Origin: a virus
DNA: 40,994 nt
Direction: 5' to 3' (one strand)
Virus record (IMG/VR): IMGVR_UViG_3300030419_005118
Coordinates: 1 to 40,994 of that record
Shown: one piece after another, positions 855-34,844 of the stretch
Position numbering within the stretch: position 1 is the stretch's first letter
Layout: each line of letters starts with the position of its first letter
The notes under the pieces: model-generated
Databases searched by the model: none
What the model was told of the DNA's origin: nothing
The model's input: only the letters and a program-made list of their open reading frames with translations
Position numbers and translations under genes: made by a program

Positions 855-1012
855 TTGACTACCTCATAATCTGCTGCGCTCTGCCATCCATCGCGACCCA
901 GCACCTTAATCCACTCCTTAATCGTGGGCTCCGCAAACTCCGTTACGAGAAATGCCTTATTGAAGTTTCTGGTTGTAGGACGCTTTAGTTTAACCAAATC
1001 ACCGACTTTCAT
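851..1012 (-). CDS. VGDLV-family small protein (53 aa)
   Basis: Opens MKVGDLVKLKRPTTR and ends DYEVVK, with strands AFLVTEF and IKVLGRDG. Its ATG overlaps the preceding stop (TGATG) and its stop overlaps the next ATG (ATGA), so translation is probably coupled. It is the first member of the tandem array in the direction of transcription. It lacks the ISESR ending, so its junction differs from the four that follow. Function is unknown. Confidence 0.82.
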   Translation of the reverse strand: MKVGDLVKLKRPTTRNFNKAFLVTEFAEPTIKEWIKVLGRDGWQSAADYEVVK

Positions 1013-1422
1013 CAAAATTCAATGCTCCTGCTCACGTATACATCCCAAAATGCGCTGCCACGCTGCTCGGTATCTTCCAAGTCCTCACCGACGCGAACAA
1101 ACTTATAGCACTCGTCGCCATCTACGTGAGTGACTGGGGTGGGGCTCTTATCCTGCGCTTTCTGCTCGTCGGACACGGGCACCTGTTCGCCGTCGCACCA
1201 GTCGAGGAAGTCTTCGATGGCAGCGATGCCTTCATACGAAGTATACCACTTGATGCCATTCCACGCGAATAGCATATTTCCCTTGCCATCATAATCTTTA
1301 ACCATACGGTCGTGGTCGCCCCAACAGAGAGCACGCGCTTGCGGCGACTTTGCCATCGTGACCATAAACTGAGGCATGACTTCTTTACCAACGACGAGAA
1401 CGACCTCTGAACGATAACCCAT
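1012..1422 (-). CDS. Phage protein of the MGYRSEV type (136 aa)
   Basis: Opens MGYRSEVVLVVGKE, an N-terminus I recognise from uncharacterised phage proteins. The middle (ALCWGDHDRM, FAWNGIKWYTSYEG) is rich in aromatic residues and looks like a compact alpha/beta domain. The acidic C-terminal third contains ECYKFVRVGED. It starts at ATG behind AAAGGAGAG and is the first gene after a TTGAAT-16-CGTCTA promoter, so it probably leads the VGDLV operon. No catalytic motif was identified. Confidence 0.8.
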   Translation of the reverse strand: MGYRSEVVLVVGKEVMPQFMVTMAKSPQARALCWGDHDRMVKDYDGKGNMLFAWNGIKWYTSYEGIAAIEDFLDWCDGEQVPVSDEQKAQDKSPTPVTHVDGDECYKFVRVGEDLEDTEQRGSAFWDVYVSRSIEF

Positions 1423-1452: not shown

Positions 1453-1480
1453 TAGACGCAGGAGTTCCGCGAATATTCAA
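1453..1480 (-). promoter_or_regulatory. Putative phage promoter, TTGAAT-16-CGTCTA (copy A)
   Basis: Minus-strand TTGAAT at 1480-1475, 16 bases, then CGTCTA at 1458-1453, preceded by an A/T-rich tract. It lies in the only gap of this area, downstream of one gene's stop and 31 bases before the ATG of the MGYRSEV gene. Three other copies with the same spacing occur at 2700, 4311 and 5197. Confidence 0.7.
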
Positions 1481-1497
1481 AAAAATTAAATTATTTT

Positions 1498-1671
1498 TCA
1501 AGGCGTGCAAACACCAGCATCAATCAGGGATTTCGCCATTCGTCCAAACGCGCCTTGCAGCGTCCAGGCTAACCCGGTGTCGATTAGGTGCTGCCATGCC
1601 TCGATGATTCTCTCCTCGTCATCGCAATCAACAAACCCTTCTGCAATTCCAACTGCTTCGTAATCATCCAT
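1498..1671 (-). CDS. Small phage protein with LIDTGLAWTLQG motif (57 aa)
   Basis: Opens MDDYEAVGIAEGF, followed by an acidic stretch (DCDDEER), then AWQHLIDTGLAWTLQG and FGRMAKSLIDAGVC. This pattern is a recurrent tiny phage protein, which I believe is catalogued as DUF7417 (not checked). Its function is unknown. The ATG follows GGAGAAATTAAATA and overlaps the upstream gene by 8 bases. It is the last gene before promoter copy A. Confidence 0.85.
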   Translation of the reverse strand: MDDYEAVGIAEGFVDCDDEERIIEAWQHLIDTGLAWTLQGAFGRMAKSLIDAGVCTP

Positions 1672-1870
1672 TATTTAATTTCTCCATGTCACCTTTTTCA
1701 ACTCTAAAAATTTTTCCATCGACAAGAACTTTGTAATAACTCATATAATAAAAGTCTCCATCTTTTCCATGCTTCATTAGGTCAGACCTTTTATCTCGTC
1801 CGACGATGAGCCCAATTCTTTCTCCGACGCCCTCCAAAATTCGGACACGAACCAAATCACCCACCTTCAT
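1664..1870 (-). CDS. VGDLV-family protein (68 aa), detached copy
   Basis: The longer frame upstream overlaps a tiny membrane-peptide gene, so I start at the family N-terminus MKVGDLVRVRILEG. The protein has ERIGLIVGRD, KVLVDGKIFRVEK and ends MEKLNNG. The ATG overlaps the upstream stop (TGATG) and has no strong ribosome binding site, so translation is probably coupled. It is a paralogue of the array at 1-1012 but separated from it by two other genes. Confidence 0.8.
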   Translation of the reverse strand: MKVGDLVRVRILEGVGERIGLIVGRDKRSDLMKHGKDGDFYYMSYYKVLVDGKIFRVEKGDMEKLNNG

Positions 1871-1953
1871 CAATCGTCTAAGTGCAATTGAAGCACGTGC
1901 GCTGCTGCTACAGCGAATATCAAACAATAAAAAACAACTGCAATCGTAAACAT
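1870..1953 (-). CDS. 27-aa membrane peptide
   Basis: ATG with GAGGAAGTGAAATA in front overlaps the upstream stop (TAATG), and its own stop overlaps the next ATG (TGATG). The peptide MFTIAVVFYCLIFAVAAAHV continues with QLHLDD, giving one hydrophobic segment and an acidic tail. The exact fit between two genes with coupled starts supports it as real. Function is unknown. Confidence 0.6.
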   Translation of the reverse strand: MFTIAVVFYCLIFAVAAAHVLQLHLDD

Positions 1954-2267
1954 TATTTCACTTCCTCGACGTTGCGCCAATATTCGGATGCCATTCGCAT
2001 CGACCGACCAAGAGCGGGCACATAAACTTCATGTCGGTATTCGTATGGGGAATCAGGGTTGGACTTTGGACGCCTGCAAACATAAATCACTGGCTTCTCG
2101 GAGCCGCCTGGACTTCTCTGCATATAAACTCGTCGTCCGTTGTTGACGGTTTCGATACGCACGGCCTCCAAGTGCTCATGCATATTTTCGGTTTTGTCGT
2201 AACGAACAAAAATAAATCCATCCTTCGGGCGCAGAAGCATCCCAGGCTTTAGTTCACTGGCTCTCAT
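1953..2267 (-). CDS. Hypothetical protein (104 aa)
   Basis: Opens MRASELKPGMLLRPKDGFIF, reminiscent of the LKPGMLL openings of small beta-barrel proteins. A charged middle (GRRVYMQRSPGG, VICRRPKS-like) follows, with an aromatic C-terminus (ASEYWRNVEEVK). Start ATG after AAGGGGAAGCG, overlapping the upstream stop by 4 bases. I do not recognise a characterised family. Confidence 0.72.
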   Translation of the reverse strand: MRASELKPGMLLRPKDGFIFVRYDKTENMHEHLEAVRIETVNNGRRVYMQRSPGGSEKPVIYVCRRPKSNPDSPYEYRHEVYVPALGRSMRMASEYWRNVEEVK

Positions 2268-2395
2268 CGCTTCCCCTTGTGCTTGGTCTTGCGGCTATAC
2301 ACCTTTTTGCTCTTGTGCTTTCCAGCACCGGAGCGCATAAAAGCAGCGATATGCACCACGGATGGTCGCGATACTTTCTTCTTAGAATTCTTCAT
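2264..2395 (-). CDS. Very basic 43-aa protein
   Basis: MKNSKKKVSRPSVVHIAAFM is followed by a tail of Lys, Arg and Ser ending KHKGKR. Roughly 17 of 43 residues are Lys or Arg. Its ATG, after GGAGCC, lies 14 bases inside the preceding gene, and its stop overlaps the next ATG (ATGA). It could bind nucleic acid, judging by charge alone. I have no family assignment. Confidence 0.7.
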   Translation of the reverse strand: MKNSKKKVSRPSVVHIAAFMRSGAGKHKSKKVYSRKTKHKGKR

Positions 2396-2678
2396 GGCTC
2401 CAAACCCTATCGGCAAATTGTTTTGTATAGCGAAGCCCACCAACGTCTTTCAGCTCTAAATCCCCGCTCGCAACATCATCACGGATCTGTTTTGAAAAAG
2501 CGCGGAGCACCTTGATAAACGGAATCCTGCTAAATGATATATCGTTAGTGCTGTACTTAGCGGCATACTGACTTGGCATCAATTCGCTAAGGTATTCACG
2601 CTCAAGGTGTTTCGCGATGCGAACTGCTGCTGCGAGTCCTTTAATATCTTCAGTGTCCAATACGATTACAGTCTTCAT
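2382..2678 (-). CDS. Hypothetical protein (98 aa)
   Basis: I start at MKTVIVLDTEDIKGL because GGAG lies just upstream and because the longer frame would start close to promoter copy C. The sequence is mainly helical: AAAVRIAKHLEREYLSEL, then SFSRIPFIKVLRAFSKQIRDD, ending VWSHEEF. It is the first gene after that promoter. Family not recognised. Confidence 0.75.
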   Translation of the reverse strand: MKTVIVLDTEDIKGLAAAVRIAKHLEREYLSELMPSQYAAKYSTNDISFSRIPFIKVLRAFSKQIRDDVASGDLELKDVGGLRYTKQFADRVWSHEEF

Positions 2679-2699
2679 CTTTTCAACTCCGATGCATAA

Positions 2700-2727
2700 T
2701 AGACGCACGATCTTCAGTTTTATTCAA
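2700..2727 (-). promoter_or_regulatory. Putative phage promoter, TTGAAT-16-CGTCTA (copy C)
   Basis: Minus-strand TTGAAT at 2727-2722, 16 bases, CGTCTA at 2705-2700, then TTATGC. A run of T and A precedes the TTGAAT. It sits in the gap between the stop at 2734 and the ATG at 2678, which is 22 bases beyond the CGTCTA. Confidence 0.7.
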
Positions 2728-2733
2728 AAAAAA

Positions 2734-2943
2734 TTAAACTTTTTTGCTAATCGACTTTGAACCACCGGAAAGAAGTTTTAGCTCATCGTTCTGAACCCAC
2801 CATGTCATGCCGTTGTGGATTGTGCGAATCCTGCACTGTTTCCACTGAGCCTCAATGACAATAGCGAGCGATTTATATCTCTTGTCTGGAGAAATATAAT
2901 AAAAGTCTTTTAGTGCGACGAGATCCCCCTCTTCAAGAATCAT
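2734..2943 (-). CDS. Divergent GDLV-type small protein (69 aa)
   Basis: Opens MILEEGDLVALKDFYYISPD, close in layout to the VGDLV family. It then has SLAIVIEAQW and a terminal strand TWWVQNDELKLLSGG with a basic tail. The ATG overlaps the upstream gene by 11 bases. Probably a remote paralogue of the left-end array, based only on the GDLV and I-V-I-E pattern. Function is unknown. Confidence 0.72.
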   Translation of the reverse strand: MILEEGDLVALKDFYYISPDKRYKSLAIVIEAQWKQCRIRTIHNGMTWWVQNDELKLLSGGSKSISKKV

Positions 2944-3202
2944 TCATAGCCTCTGCGATGTCCTGTAGCGTCACAGGCTTCGGCTTCTTTCTCTGTGCCT
3001 TCATTAGCTTATTGTATTTTGATGCCTTATGCTCGTTGACAAAAACATTTTCGATACCCATGCTCTCGTACCTCTGAGCGGCATATTTCGCAGCCCTAAA
3101 GTTGCTGGGTTTTGTGAGAACTCGCTCCGTTGCCACAAATCGTGGCTCGCCATTGTCCCGGTCACCGGGTCGAATATCAATCTTGCTTATGTAATACTTC
3201 AC
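2933..3202 (-). CDS. Hypothetical protein (89 aa)
   Basis: GTG start after GGAGGTTATAA, overlapping the upstream VGDLV gene by 26 bases. The N-terminal half looks like a beta-alpha unit (YYISKIDIRPGDRDNG, FVATERVLTKPSNF, AAKYAAQRYESMG). The C-terminal half is basic (KLMKAQRKKPKP) and ends in a short helix (LQDIAEAMNDS). No recognised family. Confidence 0.75.
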   Translation of the reverse strand: MKYYISKIDIRPGDRDNGEPRFVATERVLTKPSNFRAAKYAAQRYESMGIENVFVNEHKASKYNKLMKAQRKKPKPVTLQDIAEAMNDS

Positions 3203-3374
3203 TTATAACCTCCACTTCATCTTCATAGACGCTGATTTCTCCATTATAACCTTGCATACGCACAATCAGTTCATGCGGTAGCACATCATCACGCACCTCG
3301 ACAACCAAAACCAAGTTGTCCATACCTCCGTGATGTTCTGGATTTAGTCTCACCAAATCGCCAACCTTAATCAT
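3177..3374 (-). CDS. VGDLV-family protein (65 aa), detached copy
   Basis: I use the ATG giving MIKVGDLVRLNPEHHGG, which follows GAGGAGGGG and overlaps the preceding stop. The core LVLVVEVRDD and the ending VEVISEVLHKQD match the array at the left edge. Here the EVIS bases again carry the ribosome binding site of the next gene, but that gene is not a family member. The shared junction is therefore older than, or independent of, the tandem array. Confidence 0.82.
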   Translation of the reverse strand: MIKVGDLVRLNPEHHGGMDNLVLVVEVRDDVLPHELIVRMQGYNGEISVYEDEVEVISEVLHKQD

Positions 3375-3957
3375 TAAGCCCCTCCTCATATTTATTGAGC
3401 GTGTCTATAAAAATCTGCCACTTCTTAGATGCAAAGAGTTTTTCTCTTTGGTCGAGGACATGCAGGATTCTTTCCTTCAACCTGTTGGACAAATCAACTC
3501 TTCTCAACAGGTCGTTGTAAGTCAGAGAGCACTTGACAAACTGATTCGCGTTCGATGAAAGAAACTGATAGTTTGTCAGACAATCCTTGCCACCAGCATT
3601 TGTCGGATGAACGTGGTCGATTTCGTAAATAATGTTTTTAATTTTCCAGTTGCAGTAGTTCCCACCGGGCCGGTTCCAAACACCATTTAGTTCGGAGGGC
3701 GCAACGTGGAGCCAGTGCGTGCAGCGATAATCCTGAGTTTCAAGAATCATATCGACATACTGCCTGACAAGTGCCCTACTCTGCTTTCGCTTGGCCTCGT
3801 TGTGCTTTCCTCGCGCCTTGTAGTTTTGCCACACGTTGTTAAATCCGCAGACCCGAAACCTGCCTCGCATGCGCTCACACAGACTTTCAATCTCTTTCGC
3901 GGTTGCCTGTGAATTTTGGTCAACCATTTCGATGTGTTCATTCAGCGTTACTTTCAT
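3367..3957 (-). CDS. Putative HNH endonuclease (196 aa)
   Basis: The C-terminal half carries an HNH-like core: IIYEIDHVHPTNAGGKD, then LTNYQFLSSNANQFVKCSLT. The DH pair and following Asn residues sit where metal-binding and catalytic residues are expected. The N-terminal half is helical and basic (HNEAKRKQSRALVRQYVD) and could bind DNA. The start MKVTLNEH is chosen for the GGGGGGGA just before it. It may be a free-standing homing-type nuclease or a phage recombination nuclease. No inserted target is visible nearby. Confidence 0.65.
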   Translation of the reverse strand: MKVTLNEHIEMVDQNSQATAKEIESLCERMRGRFRVCGFNNVWQNYKARGKHNEAKRKQSRALVRQYVDMILETQDYRCTHWLHVAPSELNGVWNRPGGNYCNWKIKNIIYEIDHVHPTNAGGKDCLTNYQFLSSNANQFVKCSLTYNDLLRRVDLSNRLKERILHVLDQREKLFASKKWQIFIDTLNKYEEGLND

Positions 3958-4153
3958 TCCCCCCCCAAGAGTAGCGAGCATCACACTCGCCATATTTATA
4001 TTTTATAAAGACGTGCCTTCTTTCTTGCTTTGTCAACTCCACATCGTTGCCGTTTTCGTCAATGGAGTTATACAAAAAGTCATCGAACACTTGGACGAAT
4101 ATCGTTTCATCCGGCGACCGTTCGATAACCACAATCAGCGGTTCCCTGTTCAC
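3938..4153 (-). CDS. Hypothetical protein (71 aa)
   Basis: GTG start overlapping the upstream stop (GTGA). The sequence is acidic with one beta-rich stretch: PLIVVIERSPDETIFVQVFD, then VELTKQERRHVFIKYKYG. Second gene after promoter copy B. Not recognised. Confidence 0.7.
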   Translation of the reverse strand: MNREPLIVVIERSPDETIFVQVFDDFLYNSIDENGNDVELTKQERRHVFIKYKYGECDARYSWGGNESNAE

Positions 4154-4284
4154 GATGTTAGCCCCGCGACCACGCCATCAATCCAGTTCTTCAAATCGCG
4201 AAAAACATGCGGATTATCAGCGAGATAAGAGATAACAAAATAAGTACCACATGCGATGAGTGCGTACTTGACAAATGTATTCAC
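4150..4284 (-). CDS. Small membrane protein (44 aa)
   Basis: GTG start behind AAAGGAGAGACTT. MNTFVKYALIACGTYFVISY is one membrane-spanning segment, followed by a short polar tail with an amphipathic helix (FRDLKNWIDGVVAGL). First gene after promoter copy B, 27 bases from its CGTCTA. Its stop overlaps the next GTG. Confidence 0.65.
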   Translation of the reverse strand: MNTFVKYALIACGTYFVISYLADNPHVFRDLKNWIDGVVAGLTS

Positions 4285-4310
4285 AAGTCTCTCCTTTGTT
4301 CGTCAGTCTA

Positions 4311-4338
4311 TAGACGAAGCACATTCAAGAATATTCAA
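4311..4338 (-). promoter_or_regulatory. Putative phage promoter, TTGAAT-16-CGTCTA (copy B)
   Basis: Minus-strand TTGAAT at 4338-4333, 16 bases, CGTCTA at 4316-4311, followed by TAGACTG. It sits in the gap between the stop at 4354 and the GTG at 4284. The leader AACAAAGGAGAGAC after it also appears after copy A, so promoter and ribosome binding site are repeated as a unit. Confidence 0.72.
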
Positions 4339-4353
4339 TATTTTTTGAAATTA

Positions 4354-4575
4354 TTATTCGGGCTCACCACACCTCAACTCAGTCACGCCATCTATAACTT
4401 GAGCGTAAAATAAATCGCCCTCCGAAATTTCACATGGAAAAAGTTCAACAGGTATATCTGCCTCGTAAGTTTCTGGGCCATCTGTTGTAAAAATTACATG
4501 TGCCATACCATTGTCAATCATATCGACCGACCCAATACAAAACAAACTGGCTACAATCGCCATATATTTATACAT
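4354..4575 (-). CDS. Small protein with N-terminal hydrophobic segment (73 aa)
   Basis: I start at MYKYMAIVASLFCIGSV, behind AAGGAAAG. The body DNGMAHVIFTTDGPETYEAD, the helix-breaking VELFPCEISEGDLFY and the end VTELRCGEPE form a small beta-rich domain. It resembles the short phage proteins that look like DUF3006 (my recollection, unchecked). The N-terminus could be a membrane anchor or simply a core strand. No lipobox fits the Cys well. Confidence 0.7.
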   Translation of the reverse strand: MYKYMAIVASLFCIGSVDMIDNGMAHVIFTTDGPETYEADIPVELFPCEISEGDLFYAQVIDGVTELRCGEPE

Positions 4576-4588
4576 TTTCTTTCCTTGT

Positions 4589-4864
4589 TTATTTATCAAA
4601 AAAGACTCTGACGTGACCGACTGGCACCTTCAGAACCACCATTCGCCACCCCATCCATTTGGCGTCGAATTTAGAACGAAACTCTTGACCCAGCAAATCA
4701 TTCGGGTCATTCACTTCTAAAACTGCCCTAATCATTTCGCCTCCGTCGTCGGAGTGAAAATCGACAGTAAAGCCACCGGTCCAGTTATCGGCGATATATT
4801 CCATTAAAGATTTTTTAGCCTCCTGCTTGGAGGCTTTTTTGCCGCTAAAAAAGATGTTTGCCAT
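4589..4864 (-). CDS. Hypothetical protein (91 aa)
   Basis: Opens MANIFFSGKKASKQEAKK, then YIADNWTGGFTVDFHSDDGG, VLEVNDPNDLLGQEF and WMGWRMVVLKVPVGHVRVFF. An alternating alpha/beta pattern suggests a compact cytosolic domain. The ATG overlaps the upstream stop (TAATG) with no strong ribosome binding site. The early codons contain an inverted repeat described separately. Confidence 0.72.
   Translation of the reverse strand: MANIFFSGKKASKQEAKKSLMEYIADNWTGGFTVDFHSDDGGEMIRAVLEVNDPNDLLGQEFRSKFDAKWMGWRMVVLKVPVGHVRVFFDK
4817..4840 (+). terminator. Terminator-like hairpin on the antisense strand
   Basis: On the plus strand AGCCTCC, loop TGCTT, GGAGGCT is followed by at least five T, the form of an intrinsic terminator. 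It lies within the first codons of a minus-strand gene, so it would stop antisense transcription. On the mRNA the same stem would form just after the start codon. It may be incidental to the codons for KKASKQEAKK. Confidence 0.4.
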
Positions 4865-5121
4865 TACGCACTGATGCCATTCAATTCCTGACGGGCGGCG
4901 GCGGCTGTCGCAAAAAGCTGTGCAGTGTATTCGCAGAAAGCTGCGTATGCCTCTGGTGTCAGATTGGGTGGGGCCTTATCGGGATCAGTAAGAGACTCTG
5001 ACGTACTGAACGCCATGGCCGAAAAATACATATTCTCCCCGAACAGCAGCGCACTTTCAATCGCGGTTTCAAGCGGAGTCAGTGACTTATCGAGATCGGT
5101 AAAATTAAAATTGGTTTCCAT
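4864..5121 (-). CDS. Hypothetical protein (85 aa)
   Basis: I start at METNFNFTDLDKSL, behind AGAAAGGCG. The longer frame would begin upstream of promoter copy D and is unlikely. The protein is helical and alanine-rich (AIESALLFGENMYFSAMAF, AYAAFCEYTAQLFATAAAAR) and ends NGISA. First substantial gene after the promoter, with a 76-base leader. Not recognised. Confidence 0.72.
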   Translation of the reverse strand: METNFNFTDLDKSLTPLETAIESALLFGENMYFSAMAFSTSESLTDPDKAPPNLTPEAYAAFCEYTAQLFATAAAARQELNGISA

Positions 5122-5196
5122 CTTTTCGCCTTTCTTCAAGATGATGATTTTTGGTTCAGCTTTTGGTTTTGTCTCGTTTTTATTTGAGACATGTAA

Positions 5197-5224
5197 TAGA
5201 CGTTCTTCGTCTTCGGAAATTCGA
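5197..5224 (-). promoter_or_regulatory. Putative phage promoter, TCGAAT-16-CGTCTA (copy D)
   Basis: Minus-strand TCGAAT (one change from TTGAAT) at 5224-5219, 16 bases, CGTCTA at 5202-5197, then TTACATG. Preceded by an A-rich stretch. It lies in the 5122-5260 gap, the longest in the window. The leader contains an 18-codon ORF (MSQIKTRQNQ...) without a ribosome binding site that I would not call a gene. Confidence 0.65.
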
Positions 5225-6905: not shown

Positions 6906-7949
6906 CTATGCGCCAGTATCCAAGCCTGTATCTCCTGTGTCGCCTCCCTCCGTTGGAAAGTAGCGATACCCGACCTCCACTAAGTCGTTTCCACTTGGCA
7001 CAACTGTAAAATAAATAGTATTGTCGGAAGAAGTATACGTCCAATCATAATTTAATGCCCCATTTATGAAAACTCTTATCGAATCTTCGATAGGCTCGTG
7101 AGTTAGCTGAAGATATTCATACGGTTCCAGGCGAGAGGCTGCGTCTATTACACCAGCAGACCAATCTTCGGAGCAAACATCAACAATTTGGCCAGCAAAG
7201 TAATTGGTAGCCTCAATATACCTATCGCCATTATTATAAGCATTAGTATTGCAAAGCGACTCAGAAGGATCTATATTAACAATGCTTGATAAGAATACTG
7301 ATCCACCTCGTAGTCCCTGATACCATGATACGAACCCATCAACCGTTGGAAAGTGGGCATCACTTTGCTCCTCTTCATCGGACACAAACACTACTAGTAG
7401 CGCCGCATCATAGCGAAGCCATGTTTGAGCATATGTATTGTTGATGAGATATTCATAAGATGCATCGAAGCCTTCTTCCCTGTGCCCCCTTCCCATATTG
7501 TAGTACATATTCTCTGCGTCTACTATATCGTCACCAGGGACAAGTGGAAATTGAGCCTCTATAGAAGCGTATGATGGGTCATTGGTCATCATAGCCAATC
7601 GCCAACCACTGTCTGGCAGCGCCAAGAGCATCGCCTCTATTCCGGCCAACAATTGTTCATCATAGCGATTCATTGAGCCGGAAGTGTCAATAACCCAAAG
7701 AATATCAACACCATCGACCGACTGAGGTTGGATAAACGAGTCTACCCATATCTCGCCTGCATCAGCGGGAACCTCGACCTCTATGTAGACAGGCACCTCT
7801 ACTTCTTCATAAACAGTTTCATAAACTGTTTCCACCACGGTTTCAGTGCCGGATCCGACGATATGGTAATCCATGTTTGTGGTGCATCCGGTTACAAAAA
7901 GTATCGAAAGAAGAACTCCAATAATTCTTTTTGCAACTCCGACAAACAT
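6906..7949 (-). CDS. von Willebrand factor A domain lipoprotein (347 aa)
   Basis: Starts at ATG behind GGAGGATTG. A signal peptide with lipobox FVTGC (Cys about residue 22) predicts a lipid-anchored envelope protein. A Glu/Val/Thr-rich linker (VVETVYETVYEEVEVP) leads to a vWA domain with a MIDAS motif WVIDTSGSMNRYDEQ near residue 85. VVFVSDEEEQSD follows later, and two Cys may pair. After a C-terminal beta region the protein ends in repeated DTG (GDTGDTGLDTGA), a tail style I associate with lipoproteins of Myxococcota-like bacteria. Such proteins bind ligands through a divalent metal. A secreted vWA lipoprotein is unusual in a phage and may be a host-derived surface or exclusion factor. Confidence 0.85.
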   Translation of the reverse strand: MFVGVAKRIIGVLLSILFVTGCTTNMDYHIVGSGTETVVETVYETVYEEVEVPVYIEVEVPADAGEIWVDSFIQPQSVDGVDILWVIDTSGSMNRYDEQLLAGIEAMLLALPDSGWRLAMMTNDPSYASIEAQFPLVPGDDIVDAENMYYNMGRGHREEGFDASYEYLINNTYAQTWLRYDAALLVVFVSDEEEQSDAHFPTVDGFVSWYQGLRGGSVFLSSIVNIDPSESLCNTNAYNNGDRYIEATNYFAGQIVDVCSEDWSAGVIDAASRLEPYEYLQLTHEPIEDSIRVFINGALNYDWTYTSSDNTIYFTVVPSGNDLVEVGYRYFPTEGGDTGDTGLDTGA

Positions 7950-11106: not shown

Positions 11107-11427
11107 TTAACTAAGTTGTGGAAATAGTGCTTGCCATATTCCCAAAGATGCCAAGCCAACAATTGATGTGAACATGATCCACATTATTTTGGACGATGTG
11201 GACTTCCACGATTCTAAAGAACGAAGTCGTGCATAAATTCCTTGATCTGGATTATAAACCGCTTCCTTGATTTTTGTTATATCCTCGGCCATGGATTCGA
11301 TTTCGTCCTTGACGACACCGATGCCATCCATCATTCTTTCGAGTTGTGACTCTAGTCGAATAAAAGCCTCTTTAAGCTCGTAACTTTGCTCATCCACAAA
11401 TTGATCCCTCGCTAATGCTGCATGCAT
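11107..11427 (-). CDS. Coiled-coil protein with C-terminal membrane anchor (106 aa)
   Basis: A long charged helix (ELKEAFIRLESQLERMMDG, VVKDEIESMAEDITKIKEAV) is followed by YARLRSLESWKSTSSKIMW and a hydrophobic anchor (IMFTSIVGLASLGIWQALF). The layout resembles XhlA-type proteins that work with holins, so a lysis role is possible but unproven. It starts immediately after groEL. Confidence 0.75.
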   Translation of the reverse strand: MHAALARDQFVDEQSYELKEAFIRLESQLERMMDGIGVVKDEIESMAEDITKIKEAVYNPDQGIYARLRSLESWKSTSSKIMWIMFTSIVGLASLGIWQALFPQLS

Positions 11428-11435
11428 AAATAGTT

Positions 11436-13013
11436 TTATACTCCGATAATAGCATGATTAGTGGTAATTAAAGTACCGGCGACCGACACCGCGTTTGAGA
11501 GGGCGGTGCCCGTTACCTTGACAGGATCAACGATTCCGGCCTCAAACATATCGCATTGTTCACTGTTGTAAAAACAATAGCCCTCGGTATCGCCTAGGCT
11601 CTCAACTAACGATTCGATTAAGTCGGGAGACAGGCCAGCGTTCAAGGCCATTTGTCGGAGCGGAGAACGAACAGCATGCTGTACTATACTAGCTCCCATA
11701 GCCTGATCGTCATTGTCGGCGTCGATGGTCAACTCTTTGCCGGCACGGATCAGTGCAACGCCTCCACCGGGCACAATGCCTTCGATTTGAGCAGAGCGCA
11801 CCGCCTCCAAAGCATCTTCGATTCTATGCTTTTTCTCGACCATTTCAATTTCAGTCGGTGCACCGACGCGAATGACTGCGATGCCACTAGCTAGGCGCGT
11901 AACTCTTTCCTGTATCCTCTCGCAATCATGCATGGACTCGGTAGATTTTAATTGATCCTTTAAGGTTTCAATACGTTGATCGACCAACTCATAATCAGCG
12001 TTACCTCCAACAACGGTTGTAGAAGTTTTTGTGCATTCGATAACCTTAGCAGATCCAAGATCCTCTAGCTTGGTTTCGTGCGCCTTCATGCCAGACTCGC
12101 GGGAGACAAACGTGGCGTTCACAGCGATGGCCAAGTCTTGCAAAATATTTCTTCGCTCCTCTCCATAGCGGGGAGCTTTGATAGCGGCAACCTTCAATGT
12201 CCCGCGCATCGCATTCATAATCATGGCCGCAAGTGCTTGATTTTCAATTTCTTCTGCGACTAAAACAAAAGGTCTTCCCTCTCTTGCAATAACTTCCAAA
12301 ATAGGCAGGATTTGCTCGACGGTCGAGATTGTATGGTCGGTTACCATGATCAACGGCTCGTCATAACGCATTATTCCTCGGCGCTCGTCAGTGATGAACG
12401 CAGTGGCACGATAGCCGGAATCAAAAATAAAACCCTCGGTAATGTCAAGAGAGGTTTCAGAAGATCGCGCTTCCTCAATTGTAATAGCGCCATCTTTTCC
12501 GACGCGATCAACTGCCATGGCAATCAAGCTGCCGATGCTCTTATCGTTGTTGGCAGAAATGGTCGCAACGTGGGCAATATCCTCCTCGCTGGTGATTGGC
12601 GTTGCTAGTTCTTTCAAATTGTCAATAACCGCTTCAGAAGCCTTGTCAATCCCTCGCTTGAGTTCAATCGGGCTAGCACCAGCAGTAAGGTATTTCTGAG
12701 CCTGCGTCAATATAGCTCGTGCCAAAACTGTTGATGTTGTTGTGCCGTCACCGGCAATATTATTTGTTTGTGTTGCTGCTTGTTTGATAATTTGGACACC
12801 AGCATTCATAAACGGATCGTCTAAATGAACGAATTGGGCCACGGTAACGCCGTCCTTTGTAATAATTGGGCTCTTACCTTTTTCTTGTAATATTACATTG
12901 CGCCCTTTCGGACCCAATGTTGATGCAACGTTATCCGCAAGGACATTAACGCCGTCAATAATCTTTTGATTCAGCGATGAATCTGAATCAAAACGCATTT
13001 TTAAGTCTGACAA
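11436..13013 (-). CDS. groEL: GroEL-like chaperonin (525 aa)
   Basis: Full-length group I chaperonin. The ATP site is intact: TLGPKGRNVIL, ITKDGVTVAQ with the conserved Asp, AGDGTTTSTVLARAIL, and RIEDALEAVRSAQIEGIVPGGG with the hydrolytic Asp. The apical domain shows YRATAFITDERRG and FVLVAEEIENQALAAMIMN. The Gly-Met-rich tail of host GroEL is missing, and the protein ends AIIGV. It probably folds phage capsid or replication proteins with the co-chaperonin encoded at 27310-27606. TTG start behind AGAGGTGTAAA. A sigma70-like promoter lies directly upstream, so it may be expressed early by host polymerase. Confidence 0.97.
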   Translation of the reverse strand: MSDLKMRFDSDSSLNQKIIDGVNVLADNVASTLGPKGRNVILQEKGKSPIITKDGVTVAQFVHLDDPFMNAGVQIIKQAATQTNNIAGDGTTTSTVLARAILTQAQKYLTAGASPIELKRGIDKASEAVIDNLKELATPITSEEDIAHVATISANNDKSIGSLIAMAVDRVGKDGAITIEEARSSETSLDITEGFIFDSGYRATAFITDERRGIMRYDEPLIMVTDHTISTVEQILPILEVIAREGRPFVLVAEEIENQALAAMIMNAMRGTLKVAAIKAPRYGEERRNILQDLAIAVNATFVSRESGMKAHETKLEDLGSAKVIECTKTSTTVVGGNADYELVDQRIETLKDQLKSTESMHDCERIQERVTRLASGIAVIRVGAPTEIEMVEKKHRIEDALEAVRSAQIEGIVPGGGVALIRAGKELTIDADNDDQAMGASIVQHAVRSPLRQMALNAGLSPDLIESLVESLGDTEGYCFYNSEQCDMFEAGIVDPVKVTGTALSNAVSVAGTLITTNHAIIGV

Positions 13014-13031: not shown

Positions 13032-13060
13032 AATATAATCTATTTTTGTTTATTTGTCAA
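13032..13060 (-). promoter_or_regulatory. Sigma70-like promoter of groEL
   Basis: TTGACA at 13060-13055, 17 bases, TATATT at 13037-13032 on the minus strand. The likely transcription start is about 7 bases further, leaving a short leader with AGAGGTG before the TTG start codon. It fills the gap between the upstream stop and groEL. Confidence 0.82.
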
Positions 13061-15298: not shown

Positions 15299-15952
15299 CT
15301 ATATAATTAGGTCAGCGATGCCCAATTTTACCGCTTCTTCGGCACTTAAATACACGTTTACTTTTTTTTCTAACATTTTTTTCAATTGTCTGGTAGTCAT
15401 ATTTGTTTCATCGACAAGAGCCTTAATATATTGCTCTTGAATATATCTTACTTCTTCCATTTCATTTTCAAGATTGTGCAGCGATCCCGCGTACCCTCCG
15501 ACTGCGCTGTGAATCATGACGCGGCAATTTCGTCCGATTTCTCTCTGACCTTTTGTGCCGGCGGCCAACAGCAAGACGCCGGCTGACATGACCTTGCCAA
15601 GCCCTCGGGTAATAATATCACAATCCTTCTTCACGTTACGCATAACATCGTAGATGCCAAACATTTCTTCGGCGGATCCACCATGCGTAGATAAAATAAA
15701 TTGTATCGGATTGACCACCTTGACAATCTCTGAGTTGGGATCGCTCGGATCTGATAGTTGCTCCACCTCTCGTGACCGATGGAAGTGCATTAGCGAGTAA
15801 ATTGCTTCTGATGACTTCTCTTCATTGATGTCGCCAACGATGCCGAATGCGCGAAATTCATCATCGCCTTTCTCATCCGATCCAACTAGGATAAATGTTT
15901 TGTTGTCGTCCACCTTCTCATCTACACTATCAGTAAATTTTTTCGGTTTCAC
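15299..15952 (-). CDS. ClpP-family protease with Asn at the triad Asp position (217 aa)
   Basis: S14 fold. It has FILSTHGGSAEEMFGIYDVM (oxyanion region), GKVMSAGVLLLAAG with the catalytic Ser near residue 122, and RVMIHSAVGGYAG with His near 146. By alignment to the ERDRFLSAPEAV region of E. coli ClpP, the third residue of the triad falls on the N of KVNVYLSAEEAVKLG. A charged 25-residue N-terminal extension precedes the fold. It could assemble with the second ClpP of this phage or act as a capsid-maturation protease. GTG start behind GGAGAAATA. Confidence 0.88.
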   Translation of the reverse strand: MKPKKFTDSVDEKVDDNKTFILVGSDEKGDDEFRAFGIVGDINEEKSSEAIYSLMHFHRSREVEQLSDPSDPNSEIVKVVNPIQFILSTHGGSAEEMFGIYDVMRNVKKDCDIITRGLGKVMSAGVLLLAAGTKGQREIGRNCRVMIHSAVGGYAGSLHNLENEMEEVRYIQEQYIKALVDETNMTTRQLKKMLEKKVNVYLSAEEAVKLGIADLII

Positions 15953-17354: not shown

Positions 17355-17423
17355 GCTTAATTATCTCCTGATACTTTAACAAGCAACTGTTATTAAATAG
17401 TTATATCTTCGGTAAAAAGCTTT

Positions 17424-17675
17424 TTAATCATATAAAAATTGCTTAAGATCGAACCCGCGCTTTTTAAGTTTCGCTAGCGCCGCATCTTGTATTTGTTTAA
17501 CCCTTGCGTAGCTTATGCCCTCGCGCATCGCGATCTCTCTGAGATTCATTTTACCGTTCTTATATATAGATAGTAACGAACAGTTGTTATCTTCGGAAAA
17601 ATTAATCCAGTATCTGCACTCTTCTGATTGGCAGTCTGTATCATTTCTGTAACAAACGCCGGAACATTTTTTCAT
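17424..17675 (-). CDS. Sigma-70 region 4-like DNA-binding protein (83 aa)
   Basis: The C-terminal half MNLREIAMREGISYARVKQIQDAALAKLKKRG matches the helix-turn-helix of sigma region 4, which contacts the -35 element. The N-terminal half has four Cys in a short span (CSGVCYRNDTDCQSEECRYW) that could bind zinc. It lacks regions 2 and 3, so it cannot be a full sigma factor. It could redirect host or phage polymerase to particular -35 sequences. It overlaps the upstream gene by 4 bases. Confidence 0.8.
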   Translation of the reverse strand: MKKCSGVCYRNDTDCQSEECRYWINFSEDNNCSLLSIYKNGKMNLREIAMREGISYARVKQIQDAALAKLKKRGFDLKQFLYD

Positions 17676-19984: not shown

Positions 19985-20177
19985 TTATGCCTCCTTTGAC
20001 ATGTTGTATAAATGAGTAGTGAAATTTCTGAACGCGGTCCACAAGCTTGACACCATAAACTGTAGCATTCTCGTTAATTGATATGATGATGCCAATATTG
20101 TGTTTCGACAAAGGCTCATCGAATGCTACTCTAACTAAGTCGCCAATTTTGTATACTGCGTGATGATCTATATTCAT
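19968..20177 (-). CDS. VGDLV-like protein, distant copy (69 aa)
   Basis: Contains YKIGDLVRVAFDEPLSKHNI, then GIIISINENATVYGVKLVD, the same order of elements as the left-end family. It has an extra N-terminal MNIDHHAV and the tail FIQHVKGGINERTK. The ATG lies inside the TATAAT of a consensus sigma70 promoter, so a transcript from that promoter would lack it. It must then be read from upstream transcripts. No clear ribosome binding site. Confidence 0.7.
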   Translation of the reverse strand: MNIDHHAVYKIGDLVRVAFDEPLSKHNIGIIISINENATVYGVKLVDRVQKFHYSFIQHVKGGINERTK

Positions 20178-20204
20178 TATAGCTGTTCGAAGCAACTCTG
20201 TCAA
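20176..20204 (-). promoter_or_regulatory. Perfect-consensus sigma70 promoter
   Basis: TTGACA at 20204-20199, 17 bases, TATAAT at 20181-20176 on the minus strand, matching the E. coli consensus at all twelve positions with ideal spacing. It lies just downstream of the second clpP. The start of transcription would fall near 20169, inside the next reading frame, so its main products would be the dUTPase and IMPDH genes. Confidence 0.75.
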
Positions 20205-20207
20205 GGA

Positions 20208-20810
20208 TTATTCGAAATTAAAATCAACTTTAACATCAAAAGAAAACTTAGGCACGCGCAACTGGTTAGCTAGCTTATGCTTCATGCACTCGTCTGCATC
20301 GAGAAACCAATCGGCATGACCCTTTTCATGAACAATTTTCAAGAAATAGTCTTCCTTCTTTCCGCAATTCCTTGCCATCATCTTATAAACAATTTTATTG
20401 AGACGGTCAGTCTCCTCGGCACTAGCTTTGATCTCCTCAACCTTGCCTCGATCCATCGATGACACATCGTGAATCATAACTGTGGCATTGGGATCCATAA
20501 AGCGCATGTCCTTTGCCCCAAAAGAGAATAAAATAGCGCCGCACGACATCGCCTTGCCTTCAACAATTGTGGCAATAGGCAACTCTGAGTGTTCAATCTC
20601 TGATATCATCGCCATCAGCGAATACACTTGCCCACCATATGAATCAATAACGATTGGAATGACAGGTTGGCCTGTGTTGTGAGCATCGCTCATTTTCTCA
20701 GAAAATTCTTGAGCGGATTTTTCATCAAACTTGTTAACACGAATAATAACAGGCGTTCGACGTAGTTCAATTTTATGAAGTAGTGGATCTTTTGTATATG
20801 TAATCTTCAT
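20208..20810 (-). CDS. ClpP-family protease with complete triad (200 aa)
   Basis: S14 fold. IVIDSYGGQVYSLMAMISEI is the oxyanion region, EGKAMSCGAILFSFGAKD holds the catalytic Ser near residue 89, and ATVMIHDVSSMDRGK holds His near 112. GHADWFLDADECMKHKLA places an Asp near 167 at the third position. The handle region AEETDRLNKIVYKMMARNCG is normal. Overlaps the polymerase gene by 4 bases (ATGA). A regulatory protease or prohead protease are both possible, and no Clp ATPase is in the window. Confidence 0.9.
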   Translation of the reverse strand: MKITYTKDPLLHKIELRRTPVIIRVNKFDEKSAQEFSEKMSDAHNTGQPVIPIVIDSYGGQVYSLMAMISEIEHSELPIATIVEGKAMSCGAILFSFGAKDMRFMDPNATVMIHDVSSMDRGKVEEIKASAEETDRLNKIVYKMMARNCGKKEDYFLKIVHEKGHADWFLDADECMKHKLANQLRVPKFSFDVKVDFNFE

Positions 20811-34812: not shown

Positions 34813-34844
34813 GGATATTCCTCTTCATAATAAATAGTTCTAAT

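Follow-up and report, generated by a model that had tools for sequence, protein, structure and literature searches.

The window analyzed in the present study is the whole 40,994-nucleotide stretch (positions 1 to 40,994) of the IMG/VR record IMGVR_UViG_3300030419_005118, which derives from an uncultured virus. Nearly all of its genes are coded on the minus strand. The window encodes a DnaE-like polymerase, a DnaB-like helicase, ribonucleotide reductase, GroEL, IMPDH, and Clp-like proteases. The GroEL gene (11436-13013) and two Clp-protease-like genes (15299-15952 and 20208-20810), all on the minus strand, adjoin replication genes. A scan with the DNA polymerase of the window retrieved 554 relatives from IMG/VR, the best 80 of which were 69-94% identical. 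No close relative was present among the INPHARED phage isolates, in which DNA polymerase identity was below 60% everywhere. Near-complete relatives (118-195 kb) encode a gp55-like late sigma factor (phrog_234), and a terminase was read from its sequence in four of them. These two proteins place the family, the members of which are marine and uncultured, among the T4-like phages. MAG contigs carrying relatives gave four marine-phage matches in four different taxa, and, thus, no host was assigned.

The preliminary description reported a bipartite element, TTGAAT-N16-CGTCTA, in four copies. We found three exact copies and one with a single mismatch (TCGAAT), all on the minus strand. Copy 1 (1453-1480; TTGAAT at 1475-1480, CGTCTA at 1453-1458) is directly preceded by an A/T-rich, UP-element-like tract (1481-1502, minus strand). 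It ends 30 bp before the ATG at 1422 of a gene for a 136-amino-acid protein with no Pfam match (1012-1422, minus strand; Shine-Dalgarno sequence AAAGGAGA), and it is kept before the same gene in the near relatives G004 and G052. Copy 2 (2700-2727; TTGAATAAAACTGAAGATCGTGCGTCTA) is an exact match 21 bp before the ATG at 2678 of a gene for a 98-amino-acid protein (2382-2678, minus strand), homologues of which occur in three contigs at 61-83% identity. Before this gene in G004, G052, and G006, the boxes are kept and the spacer is changed. Copy 3 (4311-4338; TTGAATATTCTTGAATGTGCTTCGTCTA), also exact, lies 26 bp before the GTG of a gene for a probable membrane protein of 44 amino acids (4150-4284, minus strand), and both boxes are kept in G004 and G052 with an altered spacer. 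The weaker copy 4 (5197-5224; TCGAAT-N16-CGTCTA) lies 75 bp before the ATG at 5121 of its gene (4864-5121, minus strand) and is kept in G004 and G052. These distances from box end to start codon are close to the 22-76 bases given previously. The A/T-rich DNA noted before the motif was also confirmed: the A+T content over the 20 bp directly upstream averages 89% in the window clade vs 58% in the genome.

Each copy was previously placed in an intergenic gap, which is clear for three of them. Copy 4 is located inside a mechanically long open reading frame, and a coding signal is found only after the site. In the comparison with G004, the 25 codons before this site plus the 10 codons that it spans contain 9 nonsynonymous and 0 synonymous changes, whereas the codons directly downstream contain 0 nonsynonymous and 8 synonymous changes. 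Therefore, the coding part seems to begin only past the site, and the codon pattern suggests that translation of this gene may start earlier than the ATG at 5121.

With no more than one mismatch, the window had 5 matches, whereas 0.34 were expected; a count of 5 was not reached in any of 100 shuffled sequences. The fifth match (34324, plus strand, TTGCAT) is antisense to genes and is probably due to chance.

In relatives with DNA polymerases 62-94% identical to that of the window, the two boxes are retained at a distance of 16 bp, and the sequence between them diverges. Three contigs with multiple copies, G050 (47 kb), G051 (145 kb), and G053 (136 kb), were retrieved by the pattern alone. They belong to the same family, and their polymerases are 62-70% identical to that of the window. 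A collection-wide scan for TTTTGAAT-N16-CGTCTA gave, among the matches listed, one per contig and was mostly uninformative. The carriers have 53 strict gene-strand matches and a single opposite-strand match; this count includes the near relatives G004 and G052, and, thus, not all matches are independent. A weight matrix, built partly from G050 sites, gave 39 gene-strand sites and 0 opposite-strand sites in G050. A ribosome-binding site, start codon, and open reading frame follow within 14-50 bp at 42 of 57 sites, vs 10% of random positions. Thus, the wider scan that had been proposed earlier, when run on relatives, revealed a motif enriched on the gene strand and mostly located just before gene starts. 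The motif extends past the window, but in the two near-complete carriers, almost all copies lie in the block that follows groEL.

Non-coding RNA genes are also preceded by the motif. It is located 14-17 bp before tRNA-Leu in G050 and tRNA-Arg in G053. In G050, a phage tmRNA gene (locus L328, 7719-8142; tag ANNNDSYSQVALAA) begins approximately 62 bp after a motif copy with a long near-perfect inverted repeat. The positions before tRNA and tmRNA genes indicate that the element acts on transcription, not on translation. Two further arrangements were observed. G050 has five tandem motif copies, 61-67 bp apart, before a single gene (L328, approximately 890-1180; gene-strand 46237-46516). Small paralogous proteins starting with MKVGDLV or a similar sequence are arrayed in the window at 319-1012, 1664-1870, and 2734-2943 (minus strand), and the same protein start was found after motif copies in G095.

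The near identity and tandem arrangement of some G050 copies may point to an ancestral repeat without promoter function. However, the divergent spacers, the occurrence in five lineages, the strand bias, and the position before genes make such a repeat, or mere chance, an extremely improbable explanation.

The consensus was refined by a logo (47 sites, five lineages) to tTTGAATAAA-N13-CGTCTAA-N4-TG. An A follows TTGAAT in 89% of sites, A or T follows CGTCTA, and TG occurs 5 bp further; the A run, the A/T that follows CGTCTA, and the TG all lie outside the site-selection criteria. All 47 sites have the A of CGTC(T)A. CGTC is fixed or nearly so; it was a selection criterion for this logo, and a weight-matrix scan without that filter agrees. 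The N16 spacer dominates, with N15 and N17 being rare. The core of the first box is GAAT in approximately 65 matches and GAAC in 3 at N16.

Typical sigma70 promoters are present in the same genomes. In the window, TTGACA-N17-TATATT (13032-13060, minus strand) lies just before groEL, and a perfect TTGACA-N17-TATAAT (20176-20204, minus strand) is located in the replication block. Across 80 family loci, TTGAC-N18-TANNNT occurs 292 times on the gene strand and 19 times on the opposite strand. The groEL promoter is kept in nearly all relatives, including motif carriers. In the post-groEL block, carriers have 2-19 motif sites and no sigma70 site at 11/12 or better. The motif is absent from this block in non-carriers, in which the number of sigma70 sites ranges from 0 to 13 (13 in G043). 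On the polymerase tree, carriers do not group together; at least 4 changes are forced, which speaks against a single gain of the motif class, although this count is blurred by contig fragments.

The earlier view that the second box is not a sigma70 -10 element holds: the motif has CGTCTA at N16 in place of TATAAT at N17. We also considered whether the sites are sigma70 promoters with a degenerate -10 that depend on a phage activator or appropriator, analogous to T4 middle promoters. TTGAAT resembles TTGACA, and the upstream A/T tract might act as an UP element. In T4 middle promoters, the sigma70 -10 is retained and the -35 is changed. The present motif is the reverse, with a changed -10; its CGTC shows almost no variation, unlike the first T of TTGAAT, and many strict TTGACA-N17-TATAAT promoters exist in the same genomes. 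Hence, we consider this explanation unlikely. The gene-strand bias, the proximity to start codons, tRNA, and tmRNA, the conservation in distant relatives, and the sigma70 promoters in the same genomes together provide good support, at the level of sequence, for the four sites being promoters that belong to a class distinct from sigma70.

A third motif, ACTATTTA, shows a strong gene-strand bias throughout the family (for example, 24 vs 2 in G038 and 16 vs 0 in G014) and occurs in the window at 34831-34838, 17394-17401, 11427-11434, and 7012-7019 (minus strand). It is likely the late promoter for the gp55-like sigma of the family. The T4-type late box TATAAATA showed no gene-strand excess in the family. 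This box is a single -10 element, whereas the CGTCTA motif is bipartite. Sequence comparison demonstrates the CGTCTA class, its conservation, its position, and its contrast with sigma70 and late-type sites, and the simplest view is that the family has three promoter classes: sigma70, CGTCTA, and late-type.

Regarding the factor that reads the CGTCTA class, a sigma or sigma-like factor encoded by the phage is possible, but doubtful. Phage 7-11 provides a precedent in gp47, which recognizes GTAAtg-N16-aCTA, a promoter likewise spaced by 16 bp and with CTA at the end of its -10 (PMC8948821). The family also has the gp55-like late sigma, found in both near-complete carriers, and a small region-4-like protein. 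However, the gp55-like sigma is not confined to carriers but also occurs in non-carriers, and both groups have ACTATTTA, which fits it better; therefore, it is unlikely to read the motif. The region-4-like protein is a Cys-rich product of 83 amino acids (17424-17675, minus strand) with a sigma70 region-4-like helix-turn-helix (PF04545, over the cut-off) and is present in 19 of 22 relatives. We rejected it as the reader because it is missing from the carriers G050 and G053; it is possibly a sigma appropriator or a gp33-like co-factor. No convincing carrier-specific protein or regulator was found, though the contigs end inside the motif block and may therefore lack such a gene.

Inverted repeats with covarying arms flank the second box in G050, G053, and perhaps G051. 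These repeats raise the question of whether CGTCTA is a structural element exposed in a hairpin loop and read as an extruded DNA hairpin, as by the N4 virion RNA polymerase, or as an RNA signal. G050 shows better arm pairing within sites than between different sites (permutation p of approximately 0.0002), and its single sites fold at z of approximately -3.5 to -5.8; arm pairing gave p values of 0.04 in G053 and 0.02 in G051/G056/G057. However, this signal is absent in the window clade (p 0.45; z -0.7 to -1.6), which has the same boxes and spacing, and the fixed 16-bp spacing and the sites before tRNA genes favor duplex DNA. A single-subunit RNA polymerase was not found in the family contigs; the weak matches to PF00940 (T7-like RNA polymerase) were below the cut-off and are explained by the terminase, and the window is a fragment. 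Accordingly, we give the hairpin element little credence. The same low weight is given to an unrecognized phage factor, unlike known sigmas, that would read the box in a hairpin loop in some members and in duplex DNA in others. Possible explanations for the inverted repeat are an operator, a cruciform, and a read-through RNA hairpin; a plain ECF model leaves the repeats of G050 and G053 unexplained.

The second box resembles promoters of ECF sigma factors, the hallmarks of which are AAC at -35 and CGT at -10 (PMC8103513). The sites of Streptomyces coelicolor sigmaE have spacers of 16/17 bp and terminate in CGTCTA or a similar sequence (PMC6767563), the Bacillus subtilis sigmaM -10 is CGTC (PMC6827917), and ECF sigmas need a rigid spacer (PMC6411747). 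The motif has the CGT(C) core at -10 and the rigid spacing of 16-17 bp. However, GAAT takes the place of AAC at -35. Since the strict AAC core is lacking, we do not file the motif as an ECF promoter and only state that it most likely works like one. Therefore, the element previously called a new promoter motif does form a separate promoter class, but its second box is of a known kind, the CGTC(TA) of ECF-sigma -10 elements. An additional or modified polymerase specificity had also been proposed, which calls for qualification. CGTCTA with a rigid 16-bp spacer is the type of element that bacterial ECF (group IV) sigma factors read; a host ECF-type holoenzyme could, thus, suffice, and a modified phage polymerase is not required.

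With moderate confidence, we favor the reading that the sites are promoters of a second class with ECF-like specificity, mainly for the small accessory genes after groEL. The start point, the function of the UP-like tract, the timing, and the reading factor are what we infer. A holoenzyme with ECF-like (sigma2-sigma4) specificity would read GAATAA approximately 35 bp and CGTC(T)A approximately 10 bp upstream of the start, and the A/T tract above the -35 would aid recruitment through the alpha-CTD. RNA would start approximately 7 bp past the second box, at the conserved TG, giving a leader of approximately 15-30 nt. The reading sigma may be encoded by the host, and a host ECF factor is the leading candidate. 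The second candidate would be a phage sigma that is too divergent for profiles or encoded beyond the contig ends; a profile search did not find a linked sigma2 and sigma4 protein in the carrier contigs, which end inside the motif block. The post-groEL CGTCTA block probably comprises early genes, as suggested by its syntenic position and by the use of sigma70 promoters in this block by some relatives.

The literature searched contained no report of a T4-like phage with an array of ECF-type promoters. Should these sites be read by a stress sigma of the host, the accessory program of the phage would be tied to the envelope/stress state of its host. If the phage supplies the sigma, it would be one missed by profile searches. 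Moreover, the motif makes the putative early block easy to recognize in this widespread family of uncultured marine phages and could be tested directly in metatranscriptomes.

Among known systems, the N4 virion RNA polymerase promoters, which have a small hairpin at the start site, share an inverted repeat around the second box with some relatives, and a hairpin signal is present in G050. They differ in that the window clade lacks this signal, the polymerase was not found in the contigs searched, and the motif has a distant fixed -35 box. The late promoters of phage 7-11 are likewise bipartite, non-sigma70 promoters of phage genes with 16-bp spacing and a CTA-ending -10. However, their -35 sequence differs, they form a late class, and a recognized gp47 counterpart was not found here. 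The T4 system uses sigma70 for early, MotA for middle, and gp55 for late (TATAAATA) promoters, and the present family similarly has sigma70 promoters, a gp55-like sigma, and the single-box ACTATTTA. The CGTCTA class, with its changed -10 and nearly kept -35, is unlike both the middle and late promoters of T4. In comparison with the ECF (group IV) promoters of S. coelicolor sigmaE, B. subtilis SigW/SigM, and Escherichia coli sigmaE, the motif has a GAAT(AAA) core, not (G)AAC, at -35 and occurs in arrays in a T4-like phage family. The two nevertheless have in common the CGTC/CGTCTA-type -10, an A-rich -35 core, and rigid 16-17 bp spacing, and the SigW -35, ATTGAAACCTTT (PMC8103513), is close to the TTTTGAATAAA of the motif.
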